Source of the DNA: Methanosaeta sp. PtaU1.Bin060
Lineage (GTDB): Archaea > Halobacteriota > Methanosarcinia > Methanotrichales > Methanotrichaceae
Assembly (NCBI GenBank): GCA_002067365.1
Contig: MVRK01000032.1
Span: 1 to 38,362, forward strand
Direction of reading: 5' to 3'
Length of the DNA: 38,362 nucleotides
In this document: piece after piece, positions 8,366 through 31,581 of the stretch
Layout of the letters: each line of letters opens with the position of its first letter
How positions within the stretch are numbered: the stretch's first letter is position 1
Notes under the pieces: model-generated
Seen by the model: the letters and a program-made list of their open reading frames with translations, nothing else
Told to the model about the DNA's origin: nothing
Databases searched by the model: none
Position numbers and translations under genes: made by a program

Positions 8366-8444
8366 CAGGCTGCAGAACCTCGAAAGAGGCTCAGGAGAAA
8401 GGACACGGGCCTCGATGTCGATCTCGCCCGCCCCTCTCAGCACC

Positions 8445-9311: not shown

Positions 9312-9404
9312 AGGGCATCTCATTTCGTGAGAATTGCCAAGGATAAATGCGTTTTGCTTATGGCAGGCACAGGTGAAATGCCACTTTTAGGAGGGTTGTG
9401 CGCG

Positions 9405-9524
9405 ATGGTTGTCATCGAGACGGAGGATGGAAAGGGTAGCCTCAAAATGACAGCATTCTCCGAGATGAAGGTCAACAGAAAAAACAGGATATGCGCGAGA
9501 TTATCAAGAGAACACATGATTTAA
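9405..9524 (+). CDS. Possible 39-residue small protein
   Basis: MVVIETEDGKGSLKMTAFSE... is preceded by AGGAGGG with a ten-base gap to the ATG, one of the strongest ribosome-binding sites in the window. The peptide is charged and soluble with no recognised domain. It is divergent from ilvE. A longer in-frame extension that runs antisense to ilvE is not credible. The call rests only on the ribosome-binding site. Confidence 0.28.
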   Translation: MVVIETEDGKGSLKMTAFSEMKVNRKNRICARLSREHMI

Positions 9525-11520: not shown

Positions 11521-13335
11521 TTATAGCAACTCGTTTGTATCCTGAGCAAAGGGAGGCTTTATATCAGCTCGTTTGTATTCCGGGTAAACATTCCAGATTA
11601 TCCTCTTGGGGTCCTCGCCGATTCGGTGATCCAAAGCCGACACATCGCTGACAGTGCCTGAAACGATGATCTTGCCATCCTTCTCAGCCAGAATAAAGCT
11701 GACAACTCCGCCACCCAAGTATGAAGTACGCACATCTTTGGACCAGAAAGGTGGTTTTTCAATAATGAAATCAGCTCCAGAAGCTATCAGCTTCACCTTC
11801 AGGATGTATTTGAACTCATCTCCTGCGAAATACTCTCGCACGCATGCTACCACATATGGCGAATAATCCCTGCCATTTGGCACTGTCGTGATAGAAGTTA
11901 TAAAGGCATCAATGGCATCACTGACTTTCGTACAGGTGTTGACTATTCTTTGTGCATCCCATATCGATTCACGAATCGCTTTTATCTGCTCAGTGGCGTT
12001 ATTGATAGCTTCTTCCAGACCCGCCTTTGCCTCTTCGTCGTTCGTAGCCAGGCTATCCACCAGTTTCTCATTCAAGCTGGTTATATGTGCCTCCAGGGCA
12101 GTAATTTGAGTAGTAGGCACTCGATTTTCCTTGATATGCAGGAGTTCCTCATCGACGCGCCCAATCTCTTCTTTTAAAATTTCTTTTGAATTGCAGTCGC
12201 CATTCGCAACCAAATCAACCATCTTGGTCTGGTACAGCTTTCGCTGATCGGTGAGCGATTGCACTTCAGCTTCCTTTAGCGTCTTATCGGCAAGCTTCTC
12301 ATTGATTTTATCGACCTCAGCTTGCAGCATTTTTATCGAGTCCCTTGGGTTATTCTTGAGAAGCTCTTCTACCATCTTCGTTCGCAGGCCGGCAAGGTAT
12401 GATTCAAGGCCAGCAATTTGAGAATCTGGCATCCGGTTCCTCTGGAAATCCTCTAAGGATTTTGTTTTCCCAGCAATCTCTCTGCGTAATTCGTCGCTGA
12501 CCTTCTTATCCATCTTTAGCAGGGCGTCCGCCAGTTTTTCTCGCAGTTTTGCTACAAAAGCATCGAGCGCAGTTGCCTGCTCAGTCTGTGCATCGATTTT
12601 TGTGCTCTTGATCGACTCTGCACAGGCCAGCATAGCGAATTTCTGAATGATCAGAGTATTAAGATCCCGTATCAGTGCTGAATCTTTGAGTGAATGAAAG
12701 TTGATGAGATACGCATCTAGGTTGGCTCTGTGCAGGCTATCGGCCACCAGAGCCTGAATATAGATATCTTCTGGAACGGTTAAAGTCTGTCCTCGGATCT
12801 CATAGTCGGAGCGGAAGAGGCCAACTATATCACCCACACCACCAAGGAATGCAGAGACCTGGGGAATAGCCGCCATGGCAGCCGAGACTAACGCCGGGAA
12901 AGCAACAAGGCTGAATCTGCCGGTTTCTTCCCATCGGCCTTTCTGAAGACGTTTTTCTTTGGACGGCGTAATCTTTTTAGAGCAGCCGTCCAGAGCATCT
13001 TTGGACAGCTTCAAGAGGGTATCCAACTTATGGCGGATATCCAGATATAAAATCTCGTCCGCCGCGAAATCCATCTCGTTGACTATAAGGATCTTGCCCG
13101 TGCTCACCTCTGCAGTTATTGATTCCGCGATAGTATCGCTCGCCTTTTGCAGGGCACGCAAAGAGACGATCTCAGCCAGGAATCGTTTATTCTCATCGGC
13201 TGTAACCACTCCCTCATGAGGCTTAGTTATGCTGGAGGGGACGCTATCAGGCGTTTCACTGCTGCCTATGGCCTCTGATCCACTTCCATCGTTTGTTCCA
13301 GTCGAATTTTCTGCTGTATTACTTTGCTCACCCAT
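11521..13335 (-). CDS. Coiled-coil protein with four ~51-residue tandem repeats
   Basis: About 605 residues; the family is not recognised. The N-terminal 45 residues are a low-complexity Ser/Thr/Glu/Asn tail. A helical region follows, then a hydrophobic stretch at about 143-175 (SLVAFPALVSAAMAAIPQ...) that could enter a membrane or form a core. Residues about 257-456 hold four degenerate tandem units, each like LE--L--LR-KMV--L--N----K--L--EI-----E-L--IK-NR-P--QI, predicted to be long coiled coil. The last 140 residues look beta-rich (YILKVKLIASGADFIIE, VVSFILAEKDGKIIVSG). There is no signal peptide. Two ATGs are adjacent; the second (13335) is six bases after GGAGG. A helix-hydrophobic-helix layout recalls alpha pore-forming or scaffold proteins, but that is only a resemblance. 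Confidence 0.7.
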   Translation of the reverse strand: MGEQSNTAENSTGTNDGSGSEAIGSSETPDSVPSSITKPHEGVVTADENKRFLAEIVSLRALQKASDTIAESITAEVSTGKILIVNEMDFAADEILYLDIRHKLDTLLKLSKDALDGCSKKITPSKEKRLQKGRWEETGRFSLVAFPALVSAAMAAIPQVSAFLGGVGDIVGLFRSDYEIRGQTLTVPEDIYIQALVADSLHRANLDAYLINFHSLKDSALIRDLNTLIIQKFAMLACAESIKSTKIDAQTEQATALDAFVAKLREKLADALLKMDKKVSDELRREIAGKTKSLEDFQRNRMPDSQIAGLESYLAGLRTKMVEELLKNNPRDSIKMLQAEVDKINEKLADKTLKEAEVQSLTDQRKLYQTKMVDLVANGDCNSKEILKEEIGRVDEELLHIKENRVPTTQITALEAHITSLNEKLVDSLATNDEEAKAGLEEAINNATEQIKAIRESIWDAQRIVNTCTKVSDAIDAFITSITTVPNGRDYSPYVVACVREYFAGDEFKYILKVKLIASGADFIIEKPPFWSKDVRTSYLGGGVVSFILAEKDGKIIVSGTVSDVSALDHRIGEDPKRIIWNVYPEYKRADIKPPFAQDTNELL

Positions 13336-13452
13336 CATTTCCCTCCAACAGCGATACGAGCTTCTTTTATGATAACATGTATCACTACCAAAAAGCTTAG
13401 AGATGATAAATCTATCTTATTTTGAATTGAGGTGGGGTGCACTGGCAGCAGT

Positions 13453-15984: not shown

Positions 15985-16125
15985 GAATGGTCGAAGAACC
16001 TTGCTGGATAAAAAACCATTCCTCCGGATTCATCCCCAAAAAGGCTTTTCTCGAATGAGCACGCATCGCTTTGCGAATTTATGGGATGGCTAAATACAAA
16101 CAGTCACTAGATTCTGAAATCGAAC

Positions 16126-16140
16126 AAAAGATTAATATAG
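16126..16140 (+). promoter_or_regulatory. MC1 promoter (BRE/TATA)
   Basis: AAAAGATTAATATAG is an archaeal BRE-TATA arrangement; a start near 16160 gives a leader of about 50 bases. A second TATA-like GATATATAG lies close by. GAGAGAGGT precedes the ATG of the MC1 gene. Confidence 0.4.
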
Positions 16141-16210
16141 GGTGTTTGATATATAGTAGTGCAGCAAGGTTTATTGTGCAACGCACACGTATTTGAGAGA
16201 GGTATAAAAT

Positions 16211-16483
16211 ATGGTCGAAAAAAGAAACTTCGCACTGCGGGATAGCGATGGGAATGAGATAGGCGTATTCTGTGGCAAGCAGCCTAGGCAGGCTGCCCTG
16301 AAGGCAGCGAACCGCGGCTTCACCGACATAAGGCTGCGCGAAAGGGGAACCAAGAAGGTTCACATCTTCACTGGTGAGCGCAAACAGGTGCCAAAACCCG
16401 CCAATGCCCCGACGTGGATGCCTGCCAATATCTGGAAGCCAAGCGTAAAGAAAATTGGCATTGAGAAGCTCGAAGGACTTTGA
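16211..16483 (+). CDS. Chromosomal protein MC1
   Basis: A 90-residue basic DNA-binding protein. RNFALRDSDGNE-GVFCGKQPRQAALKAANRG matches the MC1 family almost residue for residue, followed by RLRERGTKKVHIF and the Trp/Pro-rich WMPANIWKP tail that contacts DNA. MC1 bends DNA sharply and compacts the chromosome of Methanosarcinales and haloarchaea, which supports the taxonomic call. A strong GAGAGAGGT ribosome-binding site precedes the start. It is monocistronic and converges on the ABC-2 permease. T-rich DNA around 16509-16525 should end the transcript. Confidence 0.97.
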   Translation: MVEKRNFALRDSDGNEIGVFCGKQPRQAALKAANRGFTDIRLRERGTKKVHIFTGERKQVPKPANAPTWMPANIWKPSVKKIGIEKLEGL

Positions 16484-16599
16484 GTCTGATATCAGTATCT
16501 TATATCATCTTTTTCAATTTTTGCTTATCTACAAGATGAATCTTTTCGATGTGAACTTTGTATCGCAATCGCGAGACGAAGTCGTTACTTCCAGTCATA

Positions 16600-17391
16600 T
16601 CACTCAATGATCTTCTTGAAGCTGATCGATGCCACAGCAAATATAATCAGATCAAAGATTATCACGGCCGAGAAGTCCAATGTGATGTTCGTCACATCTC
16701 CGCTTATCATCAGGCCCCGGACTGCATCCACTGCATATGTCAGGGGGTTGACGATGGCTATGGACTGAAGGAGCGGGGGCATGAGTTTGATGGGATAAAG
16801 AGCATTGCTGGCGAAGAAGAGGGGCATGATCATCGCCTGGCCGATGCCCATGAAGCGCTCTCGGGTCTTCATGAGGGAGGCCACGAAGATCGACAACCCG
16901 GCAAAGCCGCCTGAGATCATAAACAGCATCAAGAATGCTGCGATGATGTAAACAGGATCGGAAATGAACTTAACCCCGAGCAGCATGGCGACGGGGAAGA
17001 TTATCAACGCCTGCACAACCGCCCTGACGCCAGAGGCGAGGGCTCGGCCTATGACTGTGGCGTACCTGGATGCGGGGGCCACAAGCAGACGCTTCAATAT
17101 CCCGGTCTCCCTCTCCCAGACGAGGGTCAAGCCATAGAAGACCGAGACGAAGATTGTGGACTGGAGAAGGACTCCCGGCGTAATGTAATCGATATAGGGG
17201 ATGCCGTTGGTTGGAATGTCCCTCACATGGCTCATAACACTTCCATATACGGCAAGCCATAAGATGGGCTGAATCGCCCTGGTATAGATCTCAGTTCGAT
17301 CGTGCTTGAGCCGCCTCATCTCAAGCTCGATCATGGCAGACATCTCTCTCAATGAATCACTAAGCATTGTGGCAACCCCACACGACCTCAT
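16600..17391 (-). CDS. ABC-2 type transporter permease
   Basis: A 263-residue integral membrane protein with about six transmembrane helices (ILWLAVYGSVM, STIFVSVFYGLTLVW, ALIIFPVAMLLGV, YIIAAFLMLFMISGGFAGLSIFVA, AMIMPLFFASNALYPI, AVIIFDLIIFAVASI). The ERETGILKRLLVAPASRYATVIGRA segment and the SNALYPI loop are typical of the DrrB/NodJ-type ABC-2 family. A shorter start at 17367 is possible. It lies downstream of the ATPase at 17474-18484 and a second permease. Together they form an ABC exporter of unknown cargo. Because three dockerin binding proteins are upstream on the same strand, the cargo may relate to them, but no direct evidence shows it. Confidence 0.88.
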   Translation of the reverse strand: MRSCGVATMLSDSLREMSAMIELEMRRLKHDRTEIYTRAIQPILWLAVYGSVMSHVRDIPTNGIPYIDYITPGVLLQSTIFVSVFYGLTLVWERETGILKRLLVAPASRYATVIGRALASGVRAVVQALIIFPVAMLLGVKFISDPVYIIAAFLMLFMISGGFAGLSIFVASLMKTRERFMGIGQAMIMPLFFASNALYPIKLMPPLLQSIAIVNPLTYAVDAVRGLMISGDVTNITLDFSAVIIFDLIIFAVASISFKKIIE

Positions 17392-17473
17392 ATTTAATCG
17401 ACCAGCCGATCTGACCCGCGTTCCAGATCCATCGAAATAAGATCAAACGCCTGTACGCCTGCGCCAAAGATCA

Positions 17474-18484
17474 CTAAGTTCTGCTTTTACCTCCTCCCTT
17501 CACAGGCAGCATTCCTGCATATCTCAAGAAGACATCATCCATCGTTGGCCTTGCCCCTTTGATCTTTTGTATTGTGATGCCTTCGCTCCTCAGAACTTCG
17601 ATAATTGCCGGCAGCGCAAACTCGCTGTCCTCGACCACCACATGCAAATTCGAATCGTGCATTGATGCATCGTCAATAAAATCAAGTGCTTTTATCCTCT
17701 CCAATAGGCTCGATTCCCATCTCAGACCGGCAGAGGCAGGACCCCGGAGAGCTGAACCAATGTCGCCATGATCGATTGAAAATGTCAAGATCTCACTGTG
17801 AAGAGAGCGCTTGAGCTCACATGCGGTCCCCGATTTAACGATTCTTCCCTTGCTGATAATGGCGACCTCATCTGAATACATATCAGCCTCATCCATATAA
17901 TGAGTATTGAAGAAGACAGTGGTGCCGTACTCATCCTTGAAAGACATCAGGTTCTCCCAGACAGCCTTTCTGGCGGATGGGTCAAGGCCCAAAGTAGGCT
18001 CATCCAGGAAGATCAGCCTTGGTTTGATCAGAAGTGAACAAGCTATCTCAAGACGCCTGATCATTCCTCCCGAGTATTTTTTAACGGGGACATTTGCAAC
18101 CTCGTCCAGGCCCATGCTCTGCAGGGCGTCTGAGATGCTCTTTTTTCTGATGCCCGAGGGAACACCATAGATCTTGGAGTAGATGAGGAGATTCTCAAAG
18201 CTGGTGATATCCAGCCAGACGCTCATCTCCTGGGGAACGTAGCCTATGATCTTTCTGATCGAGGCGTCATGCTTGACGACATCCAGGCCGAAGACACGCG
18301 CCGTGCCTGTCGTTGGGCGGAACTGAGTGGTCAGGATACGCATCAGGGTGGTCTTGCCGGACCCGTTGGGGCCGAGCAGTGCGAAGATGCCTGCAGCTTT
18401 GACAGTCAGATCGACCCCATCCAGGGCGTTAATCTTGCCATCATAGACCTTGGTCAGATGGCTTGTCTCAATTGCAAGCTCCAT
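17474..18484 (-). CDS. ABC-2 exporter ATPase (DrrA/CcmA-like)
   Basis: A 336-residue ATP-binding subunit. It has Walker A GPNGSGKTT (about 38-46), signature YSGGMIRRLEIA (about 137-148), Walker B LIFLDEPTLGLDPSARK (about 157-173) and a switch His in FFNTHYMDEAD. The C-terminal 90 residues form an extra domain as in DrrA proteins. It should power the two permeases on either side. An in-frame TTG at 18490 adds two residues; ATG 18484 is preferred. A TATA-like CTTTTATACAC (minus strand, around 18525-18535) suggests its own promoter in the 200-base gap after the second permease. Confidence 0.93.
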   Translation of the reverse strand: MELAIETSHLTKVYDGKINALDGVDLTVKAAGIFALLGPNGSGKTTLMRILTTQFRPTTGTARVFGLDVVKHDASIRKIIGYVPQEMSVWLDITSFENLLIYSKIYGVPSGIRKKSISDALQSMGLDEVANVPVKKYSGGMIRRLEIACSLLIKPRLIFLDEPTLGLDPSARKAVWENLMSFKDEYGTTVFFNTHYMDEADMYSDEVAIISKGRIVKSGTACELKRSLHSEILTFSIDHGDIGSALRGPASAGLRWESSLLERIKALDFIDDASMHDSNLHVVVEDSEFALPAIIEVLRSEGITIQKIKGARPTMDDVFLRYAGMLPVKGGGKSRT

Positions 18485-18691
18485 TTTCAATCGTCCTTTG
18501 GGCTCATCCTTCGTCTCACAATTGTGTATAAAAGATCTGTGGTTAAAAGCATAATGATTAATCTAAAAAACTAGTTAGTTATTATTTAGTATTATTTAAA
18601 AATAGTTTACTCAACACGGGGATCGCACCAGGACAAGGGAAGATCAATTTGGTTCCTACGAAGATCCTGAAAGGCTGATGCGAGCCTTTGA

Positions 18692-19471
18692 TCACGCATC
18701 CTTTCTTTTTAGGACTAAGACTGCGCCTGACGTGAAGACGATCAAGAACCCGATCATGGCGAGGACCGACATCACAGGAAGAGGCTGGCCCAGAGCAGAT
18801 GCCCTGAGACAGATGCTCGAATGAGTAAGCGGAAGCAGATAGAGAGCATACTTGAGAGCCGATGGCGCATAGCTCAGGGAGAAGAAGGTGCCTCCCAGGA
18901 ACGCCATGGGCATGATGATTATGCTTGTGAACAGGATCATATCTTCGTACGACCGGGCCATCAGGGCAGAGAGCACGCCAAGGACGGAAAATATCATGCA
19001 GCTCAGGATCAGAAGACAAAGGAAAGCCAATCCGACATGAAGCCTTGGCGCAATGATCAAGGAAATCACTAGAAGGGCGACGGAGCTGACCAAACCTCTG
19101 AGGACCCCGATCAGGGCCTTTCCCAAGAGCAGCCATATATGGCCGATGGGGGCCATGAGGGATTCATCGAAGCTTCGCCAGTGTATCTGATCTATGATCA
19201 ATCTGGTCCCGGCACCATTGAAGCTGCTGTTCATGGCGGTCATGGCCAGGAGTCCAGGGATCACGAACTGCAGATAGCTCATGCCGTCCATCCTGATGTT
19301 TCCGCCAAGGCCAAAGCCGAATGCCGCCAGATAGAGCAGCGGGCTGACGACAGTGGCTATCAAGTAATTGGACAGGTTGCGCCTCAAGGCCATCAGATCG
19401 GCCCAGAGGATGGCAAAGGCCCCCTCTGCTCCGAGCTTCGAATTAAATGCCACTCCAGACATCCTCTCCAT
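18692..19471 (-). CDS. ABC-2 type transporter permease (second)
   Basis: A 259-residue membrane protein with about six hydrophobic helices (ATVVSPLLYLAAFGFG, FVIPGLLAMTAMNSSF, GLVSSVALLVISLIIA, GLAFLCLLILSCMIFSV, ILFTSIIIMPMAFLGGTFF, MSVLAMIGFLIVFTSGA). The ABC-2 signature region RRNLSNYLIATVVSPLLYLAAFG and MPMAFLGGTFFSLSYAP-SALKYALYLLPLTH are present. It forms a heterodimeric exporter with the permease at 16600-17391. It starts 51 bases after the stop of a dockerin binding protein, so it is probably read from the same promoter, which is an unusual arrangement for an exporter. Confidence 0.88.
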   Translation of the reverse strand: MERMSGVAFNSKLGAEGAFAILWADLMALRRNLSNYLIATVVSPLLYLAAFGFGLGGNIRMDGMSYLQFVIPGLLAMTAMNSSFNGAGTRLIIDQIHWRSFDESLMAPIGHIWLLLGKALIGVLRGLVSSVALLVISLIIAPRLHVGLAFLCLLILSCMIFSVLGVLSALMARSYEDMILFTSIIIMPMAFLGGTFFSLSYAPSALKYALYLLPLTHSSICLRASALGQPLPVMSVLAMIGFLIVFTSGAVLVLKRKDA

Positions 19472-19522
19472 TCCAGCCAGACATGCCCACCGCGGTCAGC
19501 TCCAAGATGTGCGCCTTGAGAT

Positions 19523-20776
19523 TCAGTCCCCCTTCGGGTAGACGAAGCATCCCAGCTCTCCTGAAGCATAGTCCTTCCCGCAGAACCGGCTCAGGTATTC
19601 CCTCTGAATCTTTTCGGGATCTATGTCCCGGAATAGATCTGGATGAAGCCACTTGGACCAGTACAGGAGAAGGACTGGATAATCAGTCCCGTAGCTGAGA
19701 TAGGAGCTCATAATATAAACTTGGCCGCTCTTCACGGCGTTGACCCTGGCCAGCTCAGCACGCCCAAGAATCTCATTTCGCAGTGTCTCCATCTTAGCAG
19801 GATCACTCATTTCATATCCGGAATCGTTCTTCTCGGCATACTTTATGATGACGTCCGGATTGCGTTTCATGACCTCCTCGGCATCAACAGTGGCAAAGGC
19901 TCCATTTCCCTCAAGATCGTAGAATGATTGCCTTCCTCCTGCCATCTCGACAAGCTTCTGAACTACAGAATTTTTATTATATGTCTTATAAGGTCCAGAG
20001 TTGCTTTCGACATATACGCTCGGGCGATCATCCGAGGAGAGTTTTTCGACCCGATCCCTGATGATATTTAAATATTTGTCGTGAAATTCATTGAAGTATT
20101 CCTCGACCCGTTCTCTTCTGTTAAGGAGATAGCTGAGCTTCAGCAGCTCATCTTTTGTTGTATCGGGAGTCGAAGAAGAAAATCCAAGAACTGCTACTCT
20201 ATCTCCTATGCTTTTGTCGATATTCTTTGCATGGGTACTGTAGACGATGAGCAAATCGGGTTTGATCTGCAGCAGCTTTTCCAGATCCGGATTGATCCAT
20301 GAACCCACTCCTGGAAGCTTGGAAAGCTCGGGCATGATCATCTGGTATTCTTTGCTCTCCTTGATGTTACTTGATACAGCAACTGTCATATTCTGCGCGC
20401 CAAGGACGCCGAGGATCTTTGCATCCCTGTCCACCAGAGGCACAACGCTCTCGACTGGCATATCTATTCTGACAGTCCTGTTGGCATCATCTATGAGGAT
20501 GAGCTGTTTTTCAGTACAGTTTATTATCCTTTGAACCTGCTCGATGTCCCTTTGGTCTATGCTTCCATCGCCATCGGCATCCGAGAGGAGGGTGGGCTTG
20601 TTGCTGGCGGCAATAACACCCTCGATGTAGGCGATATCCGCTTCATCAATCCTATCGTCCATATTCGCATTGCCGAAGATGCCAAGTGAATAGTCCGAAG
20701 CTGCAGCTGCAGGCACCGCAGTCATCAATGCAGACGATAAAAAATACATAATTAAAAAAAGATATAAGACTCTCAT
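19523..20776 (-). CDS. Dockerin-BtuF-type binding protein fusion (divergent copy)
   Basis: A 417-residue secreted protein: signal peptide (MRVLYLFLIMYFLSSALMTA, cut near AAA-SD), a type I dockerin at about 33-86 with two F-hand loops (NANMDDRIDEAD and DADGDGSIDQRD), then a BtuF/FepB-like substrate-binding domain to about residue 390 (MPVESVVPLV..., KPDLLIVYSTH, GQVYIMSSYLS). The C-terminus ends with EYLSRFCGKDYASGELGCFVYP, carrying two extra Cys absent from the paralogues. There is no lipobox and no C-terminal membrane helix. It starts one base after the stop of the upstream dockerin gene, so the two are cotranscribed. The ligand is unknown; corrinoid or metal chelate is the family expectation. 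Confidence 0.87.
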   Translation of the reverse strand: MRVLYLFLIMYFLSSALMTAVPAAAASDYSLGIFGNANMDDRIDEADIAYIEGVIAASNKPTLLSDADGDGSIDQRDIEQVQRIINCTEKQLILIDDANRTVRIDMPVESVVPLVDRDAKILGVLGAQNMTVAVSSNIKESKEYQMIMPELSKLPGVGSWINPDLEKLLQIKPDLLIVYSTHAKNIDKSIGDRVAVLGFSSSTPDTTKDELLKLSYLLNRRERVEEYFNEFHDKYLNIIRDRVEKLSSDDRPSVYVESNSGPYKTYNKNSVVQKLVEMAGGRQSFYDLEGNGAFATVDAEEVMKRNPDVIIKYAEKNDSGYEMSDPAKMETLRNEILGRAELARVNAVKSGQVYIMSSYLSYGTDYPVLLLYWSKWLHPDLFRDIDPEKIQREYLSRFCGKDYASGELGCFVYPKGD

Positions 20777-22069
20777 TCACTTCTTCTCCAATGGCGGATA
20801 GACGAATACTCCGCGCTTGTCCAGGTCGTAATCCAGCCTCTGGAATCTCGTCAGGTACTCCTGATGAATGACCTGAGGGTCCAGATCTTTGAAGAGGTCG
20901 GGGTGAAGCCACTTTGCCATATAAACTATGCTCAAGAAGTACCGTCCTCCGAAGAAGATATCAGCCGATTGAATGTAGACATTCCCGTCTCTAATGGCCG
21001 AAACATTGGCCAGCTCGGGTCGGCTCATGATTTCGTTTCGTTTATCCTCGAATTTGGTTGTATTGTCCTTCTCCAGAGAATAGCCGCCAATATTGCTGAT
21101 TTTCCAGATGATGAACTGGGGATCTCTTTCGACAAGCGCCTCTGGATCAACTGCGACATCCCCTGAAGTATCTCCAAAAATGTTCCTTCCGCCAGCCATC
21201 ACAATTACATTATGCGATGAAGAGCCCGAACCGCCTGTCTGATAGAAGTCGCTCCGGCCACCTTCGTAGACTCTCGGCTTTGCCTCTTCAGGCACGTCCT
21301 CTAGAGCGCCCTTTATCTTGTCCATCTTGTCATCATACCAATCCACAAACTGCTCAGCATCCTCGACCTTTCCCACAATATAGCCAAGTTTCAAGATGTC
21401 CTCAACATAAGTCTCAGGCTTGAAGCAGTCCAGACCGATCACAGAAATATCCGGATTGGCCTTCTTGAGGGTATCATTGATGGTCTTATAGTCAGAGGTC
21501 CACTGAGTTCCGTAATAGACAACCAGATCTGGATTTTGCTTCAGAATCTTCTCAAGATCTGGCATCTTTGCCGATCCAACGCTTTCAACGCCCTGAAATT
21601 CAGGGAAGTAGGACTTGTCATTCAAAGCGGATTCGCTGAACCCGACGATGCTCTCTGAGGCCTTAATAGTCCTCAAGGCCTCTGCTGCATTTCTATTTAC
21701 AGGAATTATGCTCTTCACAGGCGTTTTGATCGTCACGACATTGCCTGATGAATCCCGAAGTATCAGTTTCGTCTCCTCTCTGGAGATGATCTTTTGAATC
21801 TGCTCTATATCCCTGTCGTCTATCGTCCCGTCGTAATTGGCGTCGCTCAAATTCGTGGCAGGATTTGTTCCAGATATCACGCCCCTAAGGTAGTCGATGT
21901 CCGCCTCGTCAATGGTATCGTCCATGTTGGCGTTGCCGAATATGTCAAGAGAAAAGCTCTCGTTGCTCTGAGCGCCCGACCCAACCCCCCAGGCGGCAGA
22001 TGATGCAGCCATGATGAGCAGAGCGACCAGACTCCTCTTCAAATCTGCTTTCATATCCTTTTCCACCAT
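20777..22069 (-). CDS. Dockerin-BtuF-type binding protein fusion
   Basis: A 430-residue secreted protein (or 425 from ATG 22054, which follows GGTGG with an eight-base gap). It has a signal peptide, a dockerin at about 43-96 (NANMDDTIDEAD and DANYDGTIDDRD, both with the Asp/Asn calcium ligands), and a substrate-binding domain of the BtuF/FhuD class beginning about residue 112. IIPVNRNAAEALRTIKA and LVVYYGTQW mark the first lobe. The last residues read LTRFQRLDYDLDKRGVFVYP, shared with the copies at 22337-23623 and 36739-38082. It is clearly a tandem duplicate of 22337-23623. The dockerin suggests attachment to a cohesin partner on the cell surface instead of a lipid anchor. Confidence 0.92.
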   Translation of the reverse strand: MVEKDMKADLKRSLVALLIMAASSAAWGVGSGAQSNESFSLDIFGNANMDDTIDEADIDYLRGVISGTNPATNLSDANYDGTIDDRDIEQIQKIISREETKLILRDSSGNVVTIKTPVKSIIPVNRNAAEALRTIKASESIVGFSESALNDKSYFPEFQGVESVGSAKMPDLEKILKQNPDLVVYYGTQWTSDYKTINDTLKKANPDISVIGLDCFKPETYVEDILKLGYIVGKVEDAEQFVDWYDDKMDKIKGALEDVPEEAKPRVYEGGRSDFYQTGGSGSSSHNVIVMAGGRNIFGDTSGDVAVDPEALVERDPQFIIWKISNIGGYSLEKDNTTKFEDKRNEIMSRPELANVSAIRDGNVYIQSADIFFGGRYFLSIVYMAKWLHPDLFKDLDPQVIHQEYLTRFQRLDYDLDKRGVFVYPPLEKK

Positions 22070-22080
22070 TAATTATGCAC

Positions 22081-22114
22081 TTATTCATATTAGCCTTATT
22101 TTTTGTATGAATAA
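22081..22114. promoter_or_regulatory. Inverted repeat TTATTCATA-N16-TATGAATAA
   Basis: Nine-base perfect arms (22081-22089 and 22106-22114) flank a 16-base spacer. On the minus strand it lies just after a TATATATA box (22131-22140) and covers the predicted transcription start near 22108 of the 20777-22069 gene. This is a good position for a repressor site. Confidence 0.5.
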
Positions 22115-22130
22115 CTACCTTCTTGAATAG

Positions 22131-22140
22131 CATATATATA
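22131..22140 (-). promoter_or_regulatory. TATA box for the dockerin gene at 20777-22069
   Basis: GTTATATATATGC on the minus strand matches an archaeal TATA box, with a start expected about 25 bases downstream and a leader of 40-50 bases. Confidence 0.45.
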
Positions 22141-22336
22141 ACTACCTCACAGTTCCTCTGCTCGACATTCCCGCATCATCTTCACCAGGGGGATTCAGAG
22201 CAGGAAGCCCCAATGATGCCGGGCGGTTCTCCAGTTTGAAGGGTCGCTGAATTGAGCATAAGACCATGCCCCCCCCAGATTCATGGATAGCTCTTTGGCA
22301 CCTTGTATCGCCTCTCCAAGGTATAGAAGACCAGCT

Positions 22337-23623
22337 TCATCTGTTATCACCAGGATAGACGAATACACCTTGCTTTTTCAGATCGTAATCCAGGTGCTGG
22401 AATTTGGTCAGATATTCTTGATGTATTGCATCAGGGTCCAGGTCTTTGAAGAGATCCGGATGGAACCATTTTGCCATATAAATGATGCTCAGGAAATACC
22501 GCCCACCAAAGAATACATCTCTCGCTTGAATATAGATATTGCCGCTCTTGACCGCAGAGACATTGGCCAACCCGGGTTTGTCCGTGATCTCTTTTTGTGC
22601 CTCTTCAAATTTGGCGGTATCATTCTTTTTCAGCAAATAGCCGCCGATATTGTTGATCTTACAGATGATGAACTGCGGATCTCTTTGCATCACATTCTCT
22701 GGATCGGTTTGGAAACTTCCATTGAAATTTTCGAAGATGTTCTTTCCACCCGCCATGACTATTAACTTATGTGAAATGGACCCAGTACCACCAGTGCGAT
22801 AGAAATCGTCTACTGTAGCACCACCTTCGTACACCTTCGGTTTCTCCTCTTCAGGAATGTCTCTGACTATATCCCGGATTTTATCCATCTTTTCGTTATA
22901 CCAATTGGTGAAATCCTTTGCATCGTTCGCTTTTCCCACTATGTATCCTAGCTTCATAATGTCTTCTGCATAAGTTTCAGGGTCGTAGCAGTCGAGACCT
23001 ATCATATCGATATCTGGATTGGCCTTTTTGAGAGTCGCATTGATGGTCTCGTAACTAGGCCATTTGCCGTAATAAACAACCAGATTGGGACTTAGACCCA
23101 AGATTTTCTCGAAGTCAGGCGACGATGCAGATCCAACGTTTTGAGCTTCGATTAATTCAGAGAAGTAAGATTTTTCACGCAATGCGGCATCGCTGACTCC
23201 AACGATCTTGTCTGAAGCTTTGATAGTTCTCAGGGCTTCAGCTGCGTTTCTGTTGAGGGGAATTATTCTTTCTACAGGCGTTTTGATCTTCACAACTCTG
23301 CCCGGCGAATCCAGAAGGACAAGTCTCGTCCCCTCTCCACTTATGATCTTTCTTATTTGATCGATATCCTGAGTATCGATCTTTCCGTCATAATCAGCAT
23401 CGCTGTAATTAGTAGCTGCATTTGTTCCTTTTAGAACTCCCTCGACATATGCAATATCCCTATCATTTATCGTGTCATCCATATTGGCGTTACCGAAGAT
23501 ATCCAGAGTAAAATTCTCCGTATTCTGATTTCCAGGCACAACGCCCCATGCACTGTGAGATACGGCCAGGGAGATCAGTACTATTAGAGCAATTTTCCAA
23601 GACGTATTTATCATATTTCCCAT
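22337..23623 (-). CDS. Dockerin-BtuF-type binding protein fusion
   Basis: A 428-residue secreted protein. The signal peptide is MGNMINTSWKIALIVLISLA..., followed by a dockerin at about 42-95 (NANMDDTINDRD and DADYDGKIDTQD) and a BtuF/FepB-type binding domain. Shared blocks with 20777-22069 include IIPLNRNAAEALRTIKAS, LGYIVGKANDAKDF, FFGGRYFLSIIYMAKW and VFVYP. An ATG at 23614 is an alternative start. A 14-bp perfect palindrome lies about 35 bases upstream of the ATG. It is separated from its tandem copy by 267 bases that carry the second promoter. The ligand is not known. There is no lipobox, so surface attachment again depends on the dockerin or on an uncleaved signal. Confidence 0.92.
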   Translation of the reverse strand: MGNMINTSWKIALIVLISLAVSHSAWGVVPGNQNTENFTLDIFGNANMDDTINDRDIAYVEGVLKGTNAATNYSDADYDGKIDTQDIDQIRKIISGEGTRLVLLDSPGRVVKIKTPVERIIPLNRNAAEALRTIKASDKIVGVSDAALREKSYFSELIEAQNVGSASSPDFEKILGLSPNLVVYYGKWPSYETINATLKKANPDIDMIGLDCYDPETYAEDIMKLGYIVGKANDAKDFTNWYNEKMDKIRDIVRDIPEEEKPKVYEGGATVDDFYRTGGTGSISHKLIVMAGGKNIFENFNGSFQTDPENVMQRDPQFIICKINNIGGYLLKKNDTAKFEEAQKEITDKPGLANVSAVKSGNIYIQARDVFFGGRYFLSIIYMAKWFHPDLFKDLDPDAIHQEYLTKFQHLDYDLKKQGVFVYPGDNR

Positions 23624-23656
23624 ATCCCTTATATCATTTTACTTTTAGCAGATTTT

Positions 23657-23670
23657 GTATGATATCATAC
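23657..23670. promoter_or_regulatory. 14-bp perfect palindrome, candidate operator
   Basis: GTATGATATCATAC is its own reverse complement. On the minus strand it follows a TATA-like CTATAAATT (about 23686-23694) by about 25 bases, so it overlaps the expected transcription start of the 22337-23623 gene. Its half-sites match E. coli NikR half-sites (GTATGA / TCATAC) but with a two-base rather than 16-base spacer, so the regulator is unidentified. Confidence 0.55.
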
Positions 23671-23996
23671 GATATTAGTTTTAAAATTTATAGTTTTCTG
23701 CTTTGTACTCAAGGGCGGTCTATTCTACATTCTTTGGCATGTTGATGAGTTAATTAATGTAATTACATATTTCCAAATCAGCCATTAATCACATGAAGAT
23801 TCCTAAAAACTGGCAAATTCCCCTGCGCATTTATAAACCATCTATAAGTCCGCAGCCAAAATCATAGGTTATTAGGAATCCTCACATATTGTATAATATT
23901 CTATAGTATTTATATTATCAGACTGCAAATTTATTCTTAAACGAATAATCTTTTCGGATAATCATCTAAAAAAATTAGCGAAAGTGTTTGAAGCTT
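23671..23996. other. AT-rich noncoding stretch between cobN and dockerin gene
   Basis: This stretch carries the promoter of the 22337-23623 gene at its left end and the 3' flank of the chelatase gene at its right end. A TTTTTTT run on the minus strand (23968-23974), 23 bases after the chelatase stop, should act as a U-rich archaeal terminator. There is no coding frame of useful size. Confidence 0.5.
23968..23974 (-). terminator. U-rich terminator after the first cobN-like gene
   Basis: A run of seven T on the minus strand shortly after the stop codon at 23997 fits archaeal intrinsic termination, which needs only a U tract. Confidence 0.45.
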
Positions 23997-26900
23997 CTAT
24001 GCTCCAAGCACCTTGGACATTTTCTCCTTCCAGGCAGCCACCTCATCTGCACTGATCACGTCTATTGCTCCTCCCTGGAAATCTCCGCCGACATCTCCCA
24101 TCTTCTCCTCCATCCATCCCTCGATCTCCAGGTAAAGATTCTTCAGAGCATCTATGACCTCGGGATCGGCCTTCCACAGCCCCCTCTGCTCGGCCTCCAA
24201 CAGCCTGCGACCCATCTCCTCCATCGCCCAGGGGTTGTTCTCCTGGAAGAACTTCCGGTTCTCCTCGTCCATGATGAATGTTTTGGCGATCTCATCGAAG
24301 ATCCAGTCATCCACTTCCTGGGTCGTGGCCTCCCAGCCGTAGACCCTCCCCACGCGCTTGGATATGTCTCCGGCCCCCTTGTAGCCGTGCCGCTTCATTC
24401 CCTCGATCCACTTGGGATTGAGAAGCTTTGTGCGCACAACTCGCCTGACCTCATCTGCAAGGGTGCGTACCTCCACATGATCGGCATCGCGCGTATCGCC
24501 ATAGTATGCCTCCACCTCATGGCCTGAGACCTCGCGGGCAGCAATCGTCAGGCCCCCGTGGTTTCCGAAGTAGCAGCAGCATCCGAAGAGGTCCTTCTCG
24601 TCTGTGGCTGTCTTGTTGAATGTGACGTCCACGCTCTTCAGCTGCTTGACGAGTTTCTCCTGGGACTCCTCTCCGAAGAAGCCCTTGCCGTAGGCATAGC
24701 CGTTCCAGTAGATGAAAACATCTGATAGGTCCTTCTCCTTCTTCCATGCTGACGCATAGACCGCCAGGTTAACCCCGTTCCCGTAGGTTCCAGGCTTGCT
24801 GGCGAAGATTCGAGGCATAGGCCCATTCTCTATATCATGCTTTCTCAGATAGTTCATCTCCGGCGGCTCATCGAGCGCTGCAACCTCCTTCATCGCCTTG
24901 TCGACGGTCTCTATGCAGTTGTAGAAGCAGTCGCGGGTGATGCCCGATGCCCGAATGGTCAGGTCGATCCTGGGCCTCCCAAGCTCCTCCAGTGGGACGA
25001 CCTTGTAGCCCTTGAGCCTCGCTCCATTCCACACTGGCTTTACGCCTATCAAGTGGAAGATCTGGGCCATCTGCTCCCCATCGGCGTACATAACATCACC
25101 AGCCATCCAGAACATGGCCACATTCTCGGGCAAGCGGCCCTGCTCCTTGCGGTACTTCTCGATGAGGCTCTCTGCCAGTCTTTTGCCCACAACCCAGGCA
25201 GCTTCTGTCGGCACAGCCTCCGGATCGAGAGAGTAGAAGTTGCGACCTGTGGGCAGGATCTCGATCTTGCCTCTGGTGAGCAGGCCGGAAGGCCCGGGCT
25301 CGATATAGCCTCCCGAGAAACCATGCAGCAGGCTCTCCATCTCCATAGAGTCCTCCAGGCGACGGCTGAGATCCTCCACCCTTTCCCGCAGAGCAGCTAG
25401 AGAGCCGTTTCCATTCAATCCTTTCGTCTCCAGAAGCTTTGGCAGCTTCATACGCCAATTGTCGCCATCTCGATCCTGGCCCGAAGGTGGCATCATGGCA
25501 GAGACCAGCTCTTTGGAGAGCAGGTCGATCTCCTGCAGCTCCTCCATCTTCGTCGTCACCTCCTTGCCAAGAAGCTCCGCCGCAGTCTTTCGAAACTCAT
25601 GACGCAGAACCGAGCGCATCATCTCCTGCCGCCTCTCGCCCTCAGGCAGAGCGCCGAAGATGTGCATGCCGTCGGGAATCTGGGTGTTGTAGATCTGGGA
25701 GATCTTGTCGTGAGCCCTCTCCAGGATCTCCTCGAAGCTTGCGCCCGATGCTGTCAGCCTCTCCAGATTCATCTCCTTGGCCATGTTGCTCTTCTCTAAA
25801 AGTTCCAGGATTATATGCTCCAGAGCATGAGCCCTTGCGCCATCCGAGATCTTGGCGCGATGGTACTCTGCGATCTTCTCCTCCAGAGCCTTCAGATCTC
25901 CATAGAGGTCCGAGTCCGTCATCACAGCCTGCATATGGTCCACGAGAGTGGCATAGCTCCGACGCTTGGCGATTGTGCCCTCAGGAGGATTGTCCGAGTT
26001 GTAAATATAGAGATGAGGCATATCCCCTATTACAATATCCGGATAGCAGTCAGAGGAGAGGCCCACCGACTTTCCGGGCAGGAACTCCAGGTTGCCATGG
26101 GTGCCCACATGTACCATCACATCTGCACCGAATACCTTCTCGATGTACCTGTAAGTTGCGATATACTGATGGGTTGGTGGAACCTCCGGGTCATGCAAGA
26201 TCTTGCAGACCTGGCCGTCGCATCTGGCTCCTGCACATCCTCTCTTGGGCTGAACGCAGACGAGGGCATTGCCGTACTGCACGCCTGTGATCACTATCTT
26301 CCCCTGATAGAGCATAGCAGCCGGAATGCCGTCCTTCTCCTCGCCCGGCGGATTTCCCCATGCCTCGCTGACCCTGCTTTGCACCTGAGGCGAGAGGCAT
26401 CTGAACCACTGCTCATATTCCTCTTTGGTCAAGTATGCCAGGGCCCCACCCTTGGCCACTATCTCCTCGATGGGCGTCCAGCGAAACTCGGAGATGGCCT
26501 TCCTGCCCATTATAGTCTCTATCAGCTCTTTTCCATTTGCGGGAACGTTATTTAGAGAGTATCCTGCCTCAGACATTCTGTTCATGATGCGAGCCATGCT
26601 CTCAAGGGTGTCGAGATGAGCCCCGCCGCCGACTGCCGCCTCTACAGAGACACATGGATTGTTGTGCAGGATAAGAGCTACACGGCGCTCCGATACGGGC
26701 TTGTTCTTGAGGGCGATCCACATTGAGACTCGGCTGCATACTCTCGAGACCCTCTCTGGAATAGGCACATGCATCTCGATGAGGGCGCCGTCCGTCTCAG
26801 ACTTGTCTGTCACTCCTGCGATCAGCGGCTCTATGACGCCCTCGAACTCGGGCATTGCCACCGACCAGCCCACCTCGCTGCTGTTGAGGCCGTGGATGTC

Positions 26901-27716
26901 CTCATGCCATTCATCCTCTGTCTTGTGATAGACCATGAGGGGATGGAAGACAGGGACATCGAGCGATTTCAGTATGCTGGCAGATTCCTCGATGTTTCGT
27001 GGACGAAAGATTGGGAGAAGGTTGATGACAGCATCGACCCGGCCCATGAAGATCTTCTCGGCCACCTCGGCACTCGACCAGGCTCCAAGATCCCTGTCGC
27101 CCATTCCGAAGCAGAAGACGGGAAGCACCGAGTACTGCTTCTCCAGCTCGGATATGAAGGCATCCACCAGGGCTGTGTCCTTATTGGACCAGTAGGTTCG
27201 CGAGAAGACTATGCCCACAGTCGGGCCTCTCAGTGCGCCGTACCATTCGAGATATTCATCAAGGGATGCAAAGGCAGCTTTTGCACGGGGATGATATAGA
27301 CCCTGCCATAGCAGTTTCTGTGGCGGATCGAATTCGAAGTCCAGCCCCAGAACCTCCTTGCAGGCATATTTAAGCATGTTCTTATAGTTCTCCGGGCCAC
27401 CGAAGAGGACATACTTGTTGACCGCCTGGGTTATCTCCAGGGGAACATTGGCCACGGCCCAATGAGTTGGGTTTCTTCCGAAGGAGATCACCGGCGTCCC
27501 TTGATTCAGGACGGGCATTATCTCATCCCAGCACGATTCATTGGAGGGATGGAGCAGGATAAGCTGGGCCTTCTTCAGAGATTCCAGACATCTTTCAAGA
27601 TCGTCTGGCCTGGATAGCTGGGATGTGGACCATAGGTCCATGTCCAGACCGATCTCTTTTGCTGCATTCAGCAAGAGGGGCAGCTCACCGCTCCAGGTTA
27701 TGGAGACCAATTTCAT
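23997..27716 (-). CDS. cobN: CobN-like cobaltochelatase large subunit (copy 1)
   Basis: A 1239-residue protein of full CobN/BchH length, the subunit that binds the tetrapyrrole and inserts Co2+ (or Mg2+ in BchH) with help from AAA+ partners. Strong blocks are HNNPCVSVEAAVGGGAHLDT, ITGVQYGNALVCVQPKRG, the active-site region HVGTHGNLEFLPGK (about 533-546), YIYNSDNPPEGTIAKRRSY, GPSGLLTRGKIEILPTGRNFYSLDP, GRPRIDLTIRASGITRDCFYN, and the C-terminal DEVRRVVRTKLLNPKWIEGMKRHGYKGA. The first 350 residues are the more divergent N-terminal domain. No frameshift is seen. GGTGG precedes the ATG. Archaeal CobN homologues often accompany ABC transporters and may act on corrinoids, F430 precursors or unknown chelates; the metal is not shown by sequence. 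Confidence 0.93.
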   Translation of the reverse strand: MKLVSITWSGELPLLLNAAKEIGLDMDLWSTSQLSRPDDLERCLESLKKAQLILLHPSNESCWDEIMPVLNQGTPVISFGRNPTHWAVANVPLEITQAVNKYVLFGGPENYKNMLKYACKEVLGLDFEFDPPQKLLWQGLYHPRAKAAFASLDEYLEWYGALRGPTVGIVFSRTYWSNKDTALVDAFISELEKQYSVLPVFCFGMGDRDLGAWSSAEVAEKIFMGRVDAVINLLPIFRPRNIEESASILKSLDVPVFHPLMVYHKTEDEWHEDIHGLNSSEVGWSVAMPEFEGVIEPLIAGVTDKSETDGALIEMHVPIPERVSRVCSRVSMWIALKNKPVSERRVALILHNNPCVSVEAAVGGGAHLDTLESMARIMNRMSEAGYSLNNVPANGKELIETIMGRKAISEFRWTPIEEIVAKGGALAYLTKEEYEQWFRCLSPQVQSRVSEAWGNPPGEEKDGIPAAMLYQGKIVITGVQYGNALVCVQPKRGCAGARCDGQVCKILHDPEVPPTHQYIATYRYIEKVFGADVMVHVGTHGNLEFLPGKSVGLSSDCYPDIVIGDMPHLYIYNSDNPPEGTIAKRRSYATLVDHMQAVMTDSDLYGDLKALEEKIAEYHRAKISDGARAHALEHIILELLEKSNMAKEMNLERLTASGASFEEILERAHDKISQIYNTQIPDGMHIFGALPEGERRQEMMRSVLRHEFRKTAAELLGKEVTTKMEELQEIDLLSKELVSAMMPPSGQDRDGDNWRMKLPKLLETKGLNGNGSLAALRERVEDLSRRLEDSMEMESLLHGFSGGYIEPGPSGLLTRGKIEILPTGRNFYSLDPEAVPTEAAWVVGKRLAESLIEKYRKEQGRLPENVAMFWMAGDVMYADGEQMAQIFHLIGVKPVWNGARLKGYKVVPLEELGRPRIDLTIRASGITRDCFYNCIETVDKAMKEVAALDEPPEMNYLRKHDIENGPMPRIFASKPGTYGNGVNLAVYASAWKKEKDLSDVFIYWNGYAYGKGFFGEESQEKLVKQLKSVDVTFNKTATDEKDLFGCCCYFGNHGGLTIAAREVSGHEVEAYYGDTRDADHVEVRTLADEVRRVVRTKLLNPKWIEGMKRHGYKGAGDISKRVGRVYGWEATTQEVDDWIFDEIAKTFIMDEENRKFFQENNPWAMEEMGRRLLEAEQRGLWKADPEVIDALKNLYLEIEGWMEEKMGDVGGDFQGGAIDVISADEVAAWKEKMSKVLGA

Positions 27717-27752
27717 TTACTACCACCTTAGGAGACATAATTGCCTTTGTTA

Positions 27753-27771
27753 TCATACACTAGCAATATGA
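27753..27771. promoter_or_regulatory. Short inverted repeat TCATA-N9-TATGA upstream of cobN
   Basis: TCATA (27753-27757) and TATGA (27767-27771) lie about 40 bases before the minus-strand cobN start, near its predicted transcription start. The half-sites resemble those in the other palindromes of this island, though in divergent orientation. Confidence 0.35.
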
Positions 27772-27949
27772 ATCATCTCCATTCATTGCTCTATGTTAAT
27801 AACTATTTCGGGATGAATATCACAAAAGAATAAAAATTCATGTGTCTGACCAGCTCGCCCCTGGCGAAGGCTGATGGAGCCGATCACCTTTGCTGCCTTT
27901 ACATTTCGGCTGCCACATCGTAGGACATTGACGATGCCCCTAAAAACCG

Positions 27950-27979
27950 ATGGCCAAAACATAAATGGCCAAAACATAA
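27950..27979. repeat. Two tandem 15-bp copies in the divergent cobN/SBP gap
   Basis: ATGGCCAAAACATAA occurs at 27950-27964 and 27965-27979. The gap 27717-28151 has no other coding frame; a duplicated regulator site or simple slippage are both possible. Confidence 0.9.
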
Positions 27980-28036
27980 TATCCCAATAGATTATATGGA
28001 GATTGGACCCTGTGATTGCGGCATCTCTTCTTATAT

Positions 28037-28054
28037 TACCGAAATGCTTATTAA
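28037..28054 (+). promoter_or_regulatory. BRE/TATA promoter of the dockerin-less binding protein
   Basis: TACCGAAATGCTTATTAA differs by one base from 31951-31968 upstream of the second ATPase-cobN operon. It fits BRE (CGAAAT) plus TATA (CTTATTAA), with a start near 28075-28080. A second TATA-like GTTATAAGA lies at 28081-28089. Confidence 0.5.
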
Positions 28055-28088
28055 TTGATATTCAAAATGCGTAGATTAATGTTATAAG

Positions 28089-28110
28089 ATATGATTCAAT
28101 TGGATCATAT
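28089..28110. promoter_or_regulatory. 22-bp near-perfect palindrome, candidate operator
   Basis: ATATGAT-N8-ATCATAT has seven-base perfect arms, and the spacer itself contains the palindrome CAATTG, so only one base pair breaks the symmetry. It sits just after the TATA-like GTTATAAGA and over or just beyond the predicted start of the 28152 gene. The half-site TATGAT is shared with the 23657-23670 palindrome, suggesting the same regulator. Confidence 0.6.
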
Positions 28111-28151
28111 GATGGCATCAAGATGCTGAGGAACGTAGGAGGTATTTGGAG

Positions 28152-31465: not shown

Positions 31466-31581
31466 CTGTTCATACCTCAGCAGAACAGAATAGGAATATG
31501 GTGGCAAATGGTCTCATATCTATCCCTCAATTGACTTTGAAGTCGATGCAGGATTTATGCATTGATTAATAAATCTGTCGG

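Follow-up and report, generated by a model that had tools for sequence, protein, structure and literature searches.

To our knowledge, the described class I chelatase systems, CobNST and ChlHID, have no dedicated transporter of the ATP-binding cassette type 2 (ABC-2) kind. The accessible text of a 2025 paper on the heme dechelatase HmuS (PMC12583661) speaks of archaea that lack the aerobic cobalamin and chlorophyll pathways and states that the use to which archaea put their many HmuS/CobN/ChlH homologues is unclear. Among published operons, the nearest is operon-2 of Dehalobacter restrictus, in which BtuFCD-like genes, two CbiZ genes, CobN, and magnesium-chelatase subunits lie behind a cobalamin riboswitch and are 346-fold up on corrinoid starvation; the accessible portion of its description (PMC4285132) names no ABC-2 gene. 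The subject here is permA (18692-19471, minus strand), an open reading frame (ORF) for an ABC-2 (type V) permease of a chelatase-linked family (PF01061, 76.5 bits, cut-off 26.9). It lies in a stretch of 38,362 nucleotides from Methanosaeta sp. PtaU1.Bin060, which as a whole is called the window (contig C32 of G000, a 2.78 Mb draft genome, 97% complete; L, G, and C numbers are our labels for loci, genomes, and contigs). On the reading that we prefer and put at about even odds (a probability of roughly 0.5), the predicted PermA forms the membrane-spanning half of an ABC-2 transporter; the transporter would be part of a chelatase and salvage module for corrinoids/tetrapyrroles and would move a ring or ring fragment, most likely outward.

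In transcription order on the minus strand, the locus comprises CobN1 (23997-27716), the binding proteins dBP6 (22337-23623), dBP5 (20777-22069), and dBP4 (19523-20776), permA, a DrrA-type ABC-2 ATPase (17474-18490), and a second ABC-2 permease, permB (16600-17391). CobN1 is a class I chelatase large subunit (PF02514, 1254.5 bits). dBP4 and dBP5 are BtuF/FepB-type binding proteins (Peripla_BP_2, 82.9 and 73 bits), dBP4 with a dockerin-like repeat, and dBP6 is a third of their kind with its own spacer (78.1 bits). The original prediction had described two dockerin binding proteins with exporter genes directly behind them and had suggested either a metallophore-like cycle of export and recapture or the secretion or assembly of surface parts. 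The ORFs that it named are all found where it placed them; its view ended at 22069, so CobN1 lay outside it.

The locus shares features with several known systems. As in CobNST/ChlHID, CobN1 carries the HxGxHG histidine motif of the superfamily and matches PF02514 in full, and ChlD/ChlI stand beside CobN in relatives. As in the HmuS operon, a CobN-family protein is encoded beside tetrapyrrole uptake genes; the difference lies in CobN1 itself, which scores 381 bits with HmuS versus 601 with CobN and lacks the HmuS motif LSLDHxxEF. DrrAB-type exporters and KpsM, Wzm, and TarG belong to the same sequence family and predicted fold as PermA, whereas the company of permA and the riboswitches point to corrinoids, and the scores lie below the Drr cut-offs. 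Siderophore-type export and recapture likewise brings exporter-type and binding-protein genes together, but at this locus ring chemistry takes the place of chelator synthesis: a Pfam scan of 20 window proteins picked out no gene for chelator synthesis, the other ORFs lying outside the scan and no genome-wide search having been made. Among the literature matches listed, all from open-licence papers, no ABC-2 transporter was found in a chelatase or corrinoid operon, which suggests that, as far as those matches go, a dedicated ABC-2 transporter in a corrinoid/chelatase salvage module is a new element.

The tie between permA and its neighbours was measured in genomes of the family. The counted neighbours were a binding protein, BtuC, a BtuD-type ATPase, CobN, ChlD/I, and CbiZ within a radius of 4.5 kb, with binding proteins above 40 bits, the window excluded, and permease ORFs under 150 residues dropped. 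ORFs were taken as the longest ORF of at least 90 residues and the types of the neighbours came from phmmer comparisons with proteins of the window and the loci; as a result, weak relatives are missed and many neighbours are untyped. A counted neighbour was present at 29 of 38 permA-clade loci versus 2 of 36 other ABC-2 loci (Fisher p=1.7e-10), with many short contigs lowering the counts in both groups. By class, the permA-clade and control loci gave 11 versus 1 for CobN, 17 versus 0 for ChlD/I, 8 versus 0 for BtuC, and 16 versus 2 for binding proteins. When the CobN cut-off was set at 60 bits instead of 200, 4 of 36 controls had a counted neighbour (p=9e-9). The tie of an exporter-type permease to BtuF-type binding proteins, which the original prediction had picked out, is real, recurrent, and old. 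At three control loci (L140, L144, L148), a neighbour close to the end of the fetched stretch weakly resembles CobN2 (80-109 bits) and perhaps comes from another chelatase-like family; the L140 permease lies below the 60-bit entry limit and is thus uncounted at the laxer cut-off.

Near-complete orthologues, 71-74% identical to the window PermA over the whole protein, place the gene next to a chelatase. Of the 9 near-complete members of the clade, 6 (L074, L075, L076, L077, L079, L080) have permA directly behind a CobN1 orthologue; L078 has one binding protein between the two, and the loci L081 and L082 start where a contig ends. The same adjacency is seen in L109, at a contig edge. The CobN stop overlaps the permA start by 4 bases in L074, L075, L079, and L109, and the gaps, with starts as called, are 5 bases in L076, 5 in L077, and 116 in L080. 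In L107, two binding proteins precede permA, as they do in the window. The original prediction had tied permA to the binding proteins ahead of it and had named their absence in relatives as evidence to the contrary; in six of nine relatives permA follows CobN with no binding protein between the two, and the tie in that form is not supported. Judged from these gene orders, the older neighbour of permA is a CobN-type chelatase and not the binding proteins, and the window's CobN1-permA pair, split by three binding-protein genes, is most simply explained by insertions.

A tree of PermA was built from 61 rows hand-picked for spread (27 family, 21 named, and 13 Bacillota loci), with rows outside 205-330 residues or below 140 bits dropped (L107). 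The window PermA falls in a 10-row clade (100/100) with the CobN-adjacent permeases, none with an adjacent ATPase, and this clade is nested in a set of 27 rows (99/96), most of whose remaining members do have one. An ATPase would thus have been lost from the locus, CobN would have become the neighbour, and binding proteins would have been inserted later; given the weak forks beside the window clade (84/34, 84/38) and the midpoint rooting, this is the simplest reading only. PermA may use an ATPase in trans, either one of the family's own type or the neighbouring DrrA. Next to a permA paralogue, at the edge of its contig, lies a fragment (G000:C66:3-287) that is 76% identical to the family ATPase over the last 95 residues, and the window DrrA is 39% identical to the ATPase that belongs to the permA family. 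Premature stops in permA matches marked '1 TAG' (C30, G031) were considered and rejected, as intact ORFs of 247 residues start downstream of the TAG. A binding-protein match in C134 also contains a TAG.

The AlphaFold2 model of PermA (mean predicted local distance difference test 85.1, predicted template-modelling score 0.84) has an ABC-2 fold over nearly the full length. Among solved chains it is near KpsM (8tun_C; Z 20.0, 245 aligned, root-mean-square deviation (rmsd) 3.7), NosY (7o12_E; Z 19.2, 226 residues, rmsd 3.9), ABCH-9C (Z 21.9), ABCG25 (19.4), TarG (18.4), and Wzm (18.2), in a re-scoring that covers the families on the list of Foldseek matches. The nearest solved ABC-2 proteins are mostly exporters or flippases, and this likeness serves as a prior for outward transport and is no proof of it.

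The module extends well beyond Methanothrix. A PermA alignment was searched against one genome per species (84,980 species) and the best 80 of 340 relatives were kept, of which 41 are outside the family by title, those titled Methanothrix, Methanosaeta, Methanotrichaceae, Methanocrinis, Methanosarcinales, Methanocellaceae (L184), or 'uncultured archaeon' (L185) being excluded. With a radius of 6 kb and binding proteins above 25 bits, 34 of these 41 loci have a counted neighbour, 27 a chelatase subunit, 36 an adjacent ATPase, and 20 both a chelatase and BtuFCD-type genes. Members of the permA family with their own ATPase lie beside CobN, ChlD/ChlI, BtuFCD-type importers, and CbiZ in Bathyarchaeia, Methanomassiliicoccales, Clostridia, Chloroflexota, and others. 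The original prediction had called a metallophore-like cycle new for a methanogen; the arrangement is not specific to methanogens, and the same permease and chelatase company recurs across archaea and bacteria. Bathyarchaeia and relatives repeatedly show, on a single strand, the order ChlD, BtuC, BtuD, CobN, CbiZ, ATPase, permA. In L243, adjacent genes overlap or stand at most 9 bases apart all the way from BtuC to permA, and a gap of 214 bases comes after ChlD. Desulfofundulus (L250), Desulfovirgula (L258), and L248 (Deltaproteobacteria in the contig title, labelled Myxococcota in the tree) have the order ChlD, ChlI, ATPase, permA, CobN1, and their CobN1 (1491-1546 bits) is close to the window's type. 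A second set of an ATPase and two tandem, divergent permA-like permeases occurs within or close to these chelatase loci in L248 (2405-4876), L271 (11752-14001), L273, and L294. The Bathyarchaeum operon of L226 holds a binding-protein match of 996 residues that is apparently fused or duplicated (3365-6355).

A sample of Bacillota was chosen by sequence alone: 30 permA loci (E <=1e-70) in 26 of 249 genomes of the phylum of G061. The loci are partly dependent, with three in G226 and two each in G061 and G212, and one of them is the Pelotomaculum locus L254. Within 6 kb, 20 of the 30 have counted neighbours and 14 a chelatase subunit. Other genes of tetrapyrrole and corrinoid metabolism also stand next to permA. 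On the Dehalococcoidia contig L219, the end of permA (10732) overlaps the start (10725) of an ORF for HemA fused to a siroheme-synthase NAD domain. Genes for HemC, a CobA-HemD fusion, HemB, and a class-III aminotransferase (HemL-like) come next, and together the run makes up the route that leads from glutamyl-tRNA towards precorrin-2. In L254 and L261, CbiJ stands ahead of the ATPase, and L254 has a CbiQ set of the energy-coupling factor (ECF) type behind the permA unit. Surface proteins with SLH and DUF4430 domains are encoded behind permA in L249, L254, and L261; vertebrate transcobalamins carry a C-terminal DUF4430, according to the accessible text of PMC4350170.

Cobalamin riboswitches add to this company in bacteria, where 6 of the 15 named bacterial loci hold one. 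In L249, L254, L256, and L261 the riboswitch lies in sense ahead of the ATPase-permA run, in L248 it heads the second, divergent ATPase-permease set, and in L260 it lies ahead of corrin and importer genes, and permA comes later. In the Bacillota sample, at least 10 of 30 permA loci have an RF00174 match sense-upstream within 6.5 kb, where uniform placement would give 0.21, and at least 24 of 30 have one no more than 20 kb away in either direction, where it would give 2.4, with two rows under the cut-off left out; as B12 genes cluster, the excess over a uniform null indicates company and not independent events. A sense-strand stem of 11 pairs followed by a T-run lies between the aptamer and the first ORF in L254, L256, and L261, and a terminator-like stem of 12 pairs precedes the second set in L248. 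A second, near-identical hairpin and T-run also occurs between riboswitch and first ORF (L254 8257-8280, L256 8213-8236, L261 1036-1059). In this riboswitch class, an aptamer followed by a terminator stops transcription when B12 is plentiful. The transporter should therefore be made when B12 is scarce.

What the chelatase does bears on the role of the module. CobN1 exceeds the cut-off of NF004646 (1781.4 bits against 1468), and its closest solved chain is CobN of M. tuberculosis (601 bits), ahead of ChlH (513) and HmuS (381). A pattern search of CobN1 did not find LSLDHxxEF, which the accessible text of PMC12583661 gives as the domain V motif of HmuS. Since CobN1 is nearer to CobN and ChlH than to HmuS and is without the HmuS motif, ATP-driven metal insertion is likelier for the predicted protein than removal of the HmuS type. 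HmuS-like dechelation was set aside as the principal explanation, being weakened by the missing motif and by the ChlD/I neighbours. On the contig G000:C30 (L055 354-15083) the map order is binding protein, permA, SPASM radical S-adenosylmethionine (SAM) enzyme, CobN, CbiZ, two binding proteins, and CobN. A radical-SAM gene also adjoins permA in L090, L198, and L204.

The mechanism that we propose is as follows. BtuF-type binding proteins and BtuCD would import a ring, CobN with ChlD/ChlI would handle its metal, and CbiZ and radical-SAM enzymes would remodel it. The ABC-2 transporter would then move a ring or ring fragment across the membrane, most likely outward, and we infer that such transport would clear a product or an unusable ring left after uptake and metal handling. 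The company of CobN, ChlD/I, CbiZ, BtuCD, riboswitches, and the synthesis genes of L219 points to a tetrapyrrole, a corrinoid, or a fragment of one as the putative cargo and not to a peptide- or citrate-like metallophore. permA would thus stand beside B12-type binding proteins because it is part of an old gene set common to many anaerobic microbes, and such a module is most likely the better account when it is set against a classical metallophore system.

The window also contains the pair DrrA-permB, and the original prediction had treated permA, the ATPase, and permB as one complex. The spacers argue for two units. dBP5 and dBP4 are contiguous as predicted, with the junction TGA|ATG leaving zero bases between them and not one. 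permA does start 51 bases past dBP4, across a gap with a GC fraction of 0.61 and a best TATA-like match of 4 of 8, and dBP4 is probably on the transcript of permA, as far as sequence can tell. permA thus does follow the binding proteins directly; the ATPase and permB do not, as they come after gaps of 201 and 82 bases. The first of these, the spacer between permA and DrrA (18491-18691), is AT-rich (GC 0.37) and has on the minus (coding) strand the TATA-like sites TTTAAATA (8 of 8) and CTTTTATA (7 of 8), found as pattern matches without a shuffle control. Further upstream, the gap between dBP6 and dBP5 is 267 bases and that between dBP6 and CobN1 is 373 bases and AT-rich. A scan of 16000-28500 for bacterial promoters and terminators (18 promoter-like against 13.6 expected, 16 terminator-like against 9.3) was left unused, being of the wrong type for archaea.

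The DrrA-type ATPase has a TTG start with an ATG six bases later at 18484, matches ABC_tran, and retains Walker A, signature, Walker B, and H-loop. It scores 296.8 bits with TIGR01188, just below the cut-off of 312.45; the drrB-type TIGR01247 gives 156.3 and 78.9 bits (cut-off 223.05), so that all these scores lie below the NCBIfam Drr cut-offs. The ATPase is likely the partner of permB, the permease with which it is paired (PF01061, 120.3 bits, cut-off 26.9). Eight other full-length permB orthologues (L111, L165-L171), 79-89% identical, travel with a DrrA-type ATPase, and no permA was found in their fetched stretches, several of which are short contigs. In G005 (L076), a permB fragment is convergent to permA-CobN. 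Spacers and relatives together make the genes look split into [dBP5-dBP4-permA] and [DrrA-permB]. A single three-subunit exporter was dropped because of the spacer, the permA-free permB-DrrA loci, and the convergence in G005. DrrA-permB would be a second, separate ABC-2 pair with a weaker tie to the chelatase module: 6 of 13 permB loci have counted neighbours versus 2 of 36 controls (p=0.0025), two of the 13 being pieces of one broken gene in G004.

Several observations weigh against a corrinoid-linked exporter. No counted neighbour was found at 9 of the 38 family loci, some of them at contig ends, at 7 of the 41 loci outside the family, or at 10 of the 30 Bacillota loci, just 4 of which have both a chelatase and BtuFCD-type genes. 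permA is reduced in G004 (2 contigs) to a remnant of about 58 codons (C1:1876995-1877162) behind an open CobN1 frame (L112 6254-9973), and is thus dispensable there. No permA match better than E 1e-40 was found in 14 of 36 family genomes, some of them incomplete, or in 23 relatives of the class (G037-G059), where the best was E 2.4e-22. As for riboswitches, the window, to which the archaeal scan was confined, has no Rfam match; the stretches fetched for 9 of the 15 named bacterial loci are without a cobalamin riboswitch, and in L249 no sense terminator was found between riboswitch and ORF. The main puzzle is that expression under B12 scarcity fits badly with plain corrinoid export.

Expression at B12 shortage would suit a transporter that works inward. 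PermA and its ATPase could bring a corrinoid or cobalt into the cell, as IrtAB, an importer with an exporter fold, does for siderophores (accessible text of PMC10246721). At L249, L254, and L261, permA has the DUF4430 surface proteins next to it, and the stretch lacks a BtuC-type gene. On the other side, many operons already have BtuFCD-type genes, and L254 has its CbiQ/ECF-type set. The functions of the nearest solved ABC-2 proteins, mostly export or flipping, also speak against import, and we consider it unlikely. Similar weight, and thus a low one, is given to a cycle that retains the original idea of export and recapture with a tetrapyrrole ring as the chelator: a metal-free tetrapyrrole would leave the cell at B12 or cobalt shortage, take up metal outside, and be recaptured by BtuF-type proteins and BtuCD, with CobN and ChlD/I handling the metal. 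A peptide- or citrate-like version of the idea is not supported, as the gene company points elsewhere. Importer, chelatase, and exporter-type genes do form one tight run in L243, the cobalamin riboswitches have an off-switch layout, and tetrapyrrole-synthesis genes lie directly behind permA in L219. L219, however, is a single contig with no riboswitch in its stretch; synthesis genes were not seen behind permA at the other loci typed with Pfam, which are few; no secreted cobalt-binding tetrapyrrole appears among the literature matches listed; and CobN1 is more like the insertion chelatases than the dechelatase HmuS. It is a shade more doubtful that anaerobic archaea and bacteria in general make a metal-free ring, corrin-like or porphinoid, and release it through the chelatase-linked ABC-2 transporter at B12 or cobalt shortage, recapture the metal-loaded ring by BtuF-type proteins and BtuCD, and recycle it through CobN and ChlD/I.

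The presence of KpsM, Wzm, and TarG among the near folds raises the thought that the ABC-2 proteins export a glycolipid or anchor that places binding proteins on the cell surface, for which SLH proteins behind permA in L249, L254, and L261 and the dockerin-like binding proteins ahead of it in the window could also be cited. The most constant typed neighbours are instead chelatase and importer genes, most others being untyped and sugar or lipid genes possible among them, and there is no Pfam cohesin in the genome; we regard this role as improbable. NosY (7o12_E) is likewise a close fold match, so that with the gene-level coupling to the chelatase one may picture a NosDFY-like helper that drives membrane assembly or metal loading and carries no solute. 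Such fold likeness is general across ABC-2 proteins, and CobN, a cytosolic protein family, has its own AAA+ motor in ChlD/I, making a helper very improbable. The same very low standing falls to a neighbourhood of chance or hitch-hiking in which PermA is a generic drug exporter. The drrB-type similarity (TIGR01247) and the minority of loci without chelatase or importer neighbours would agree with it, while other ABC-2 genes of the family mostly lack such neighbours (2/36, or 4/36 at the laxer cut-off), gene order is similar across phyla, and the counts inside and outside the family render it unlikely. An outward-working transporter of the chelatase and salvage module is thus the reading that we prefer.

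The binding proteins and the remaining genes of the window are described here for completeness. Five window binding proteins match PF01497 (cut-off 27.5) at 73 to 95 bits. For Dockerin_1 (PF00404, cut-off 22.9), dBP4 at 26.2 bits passes, and dBP3 (22.6), dBP6 (15.4), and dBP5 (11.6) fall below; of the two dockerin binding proteins first described, only dBP4 is therefore one by the Pfam cut-off. No cohesin PF00963 was found in G000 (97% complete, with the control M. acetivorans found), although divergent cohesins could escape such a search. dBP3 to dBP6 have dockerin-like N-terminal repeats despite the lack of a Pfam cohesin in the genome. Searched with the dBP4 protein (Peripla_BP_2 type), G000 gives 57 matches, and it also has 8 genes of the CobN family, a strong expansion for a draft of 2.8 Mb. 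One CobN-family protein on G000:C55 (L064 4922-10462), at about 1850 residues, is far longer than the others. To the right of CobN1 follow BP8, a further BtuF-type binding protein (28146-29273, plus strand; 95.4 bits), a BtuD-type importer ATPase (29346-30137, minus), a BtuC-type importer permease (30386-31507, minus), BtuD2, a second importer-type ATPase (31972-32976, plus; ABC_tran 117.2 bits), CobN2, a second class I chelatase large subunit (32967-36635, plus; PF02514 1259 bits), and the binding protein dBP3 (36739-38082, plus; Peripla_BP_2 93.6 bits, dockerin repeat near the cut-off). The BtuD-type ATPase has corrinoid, heme, and FecE-like NCBIfam matches, all below their cut-offs among the 25 of 191 matches listed, and the permease has FecCD at 308.3 bits and BtuC (PRK09535) at 264.7 bits, below the cut-off of 461. 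BtuD2 overlaps CobN2 by 10 bases and dBP3 comes next, which gives a second importer-chelatase grouping in the window (31972-38082). An MC1 gene lies at 16211-16483 and, with the nearest named relatives, puts the window in or near Methanothrix. Two long ORFs, 11521-13338 (605 residues) and 8349-9524 (391 residues), have no Pfam match at E 0.001.

HmuS/CobN/ChlH-type genes are now tied, across two domains, to one specific transporter; enzymes of corrinoid salvage, the B12 riboswitches of some bacteria, and, on one contig, tetrapyrrole synthesis are tied to them too. A caution follows for the annotation of such loci: neighbouring binding-protein and exporter genes are not by default a siderophore system. 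A tetrapyrrole metallophore cycle, if true, would provide a role for the unexplained CobN-like proteins of methanogens, and the question of what CobN does in archaea becomes testable through the cargo of the transporter.

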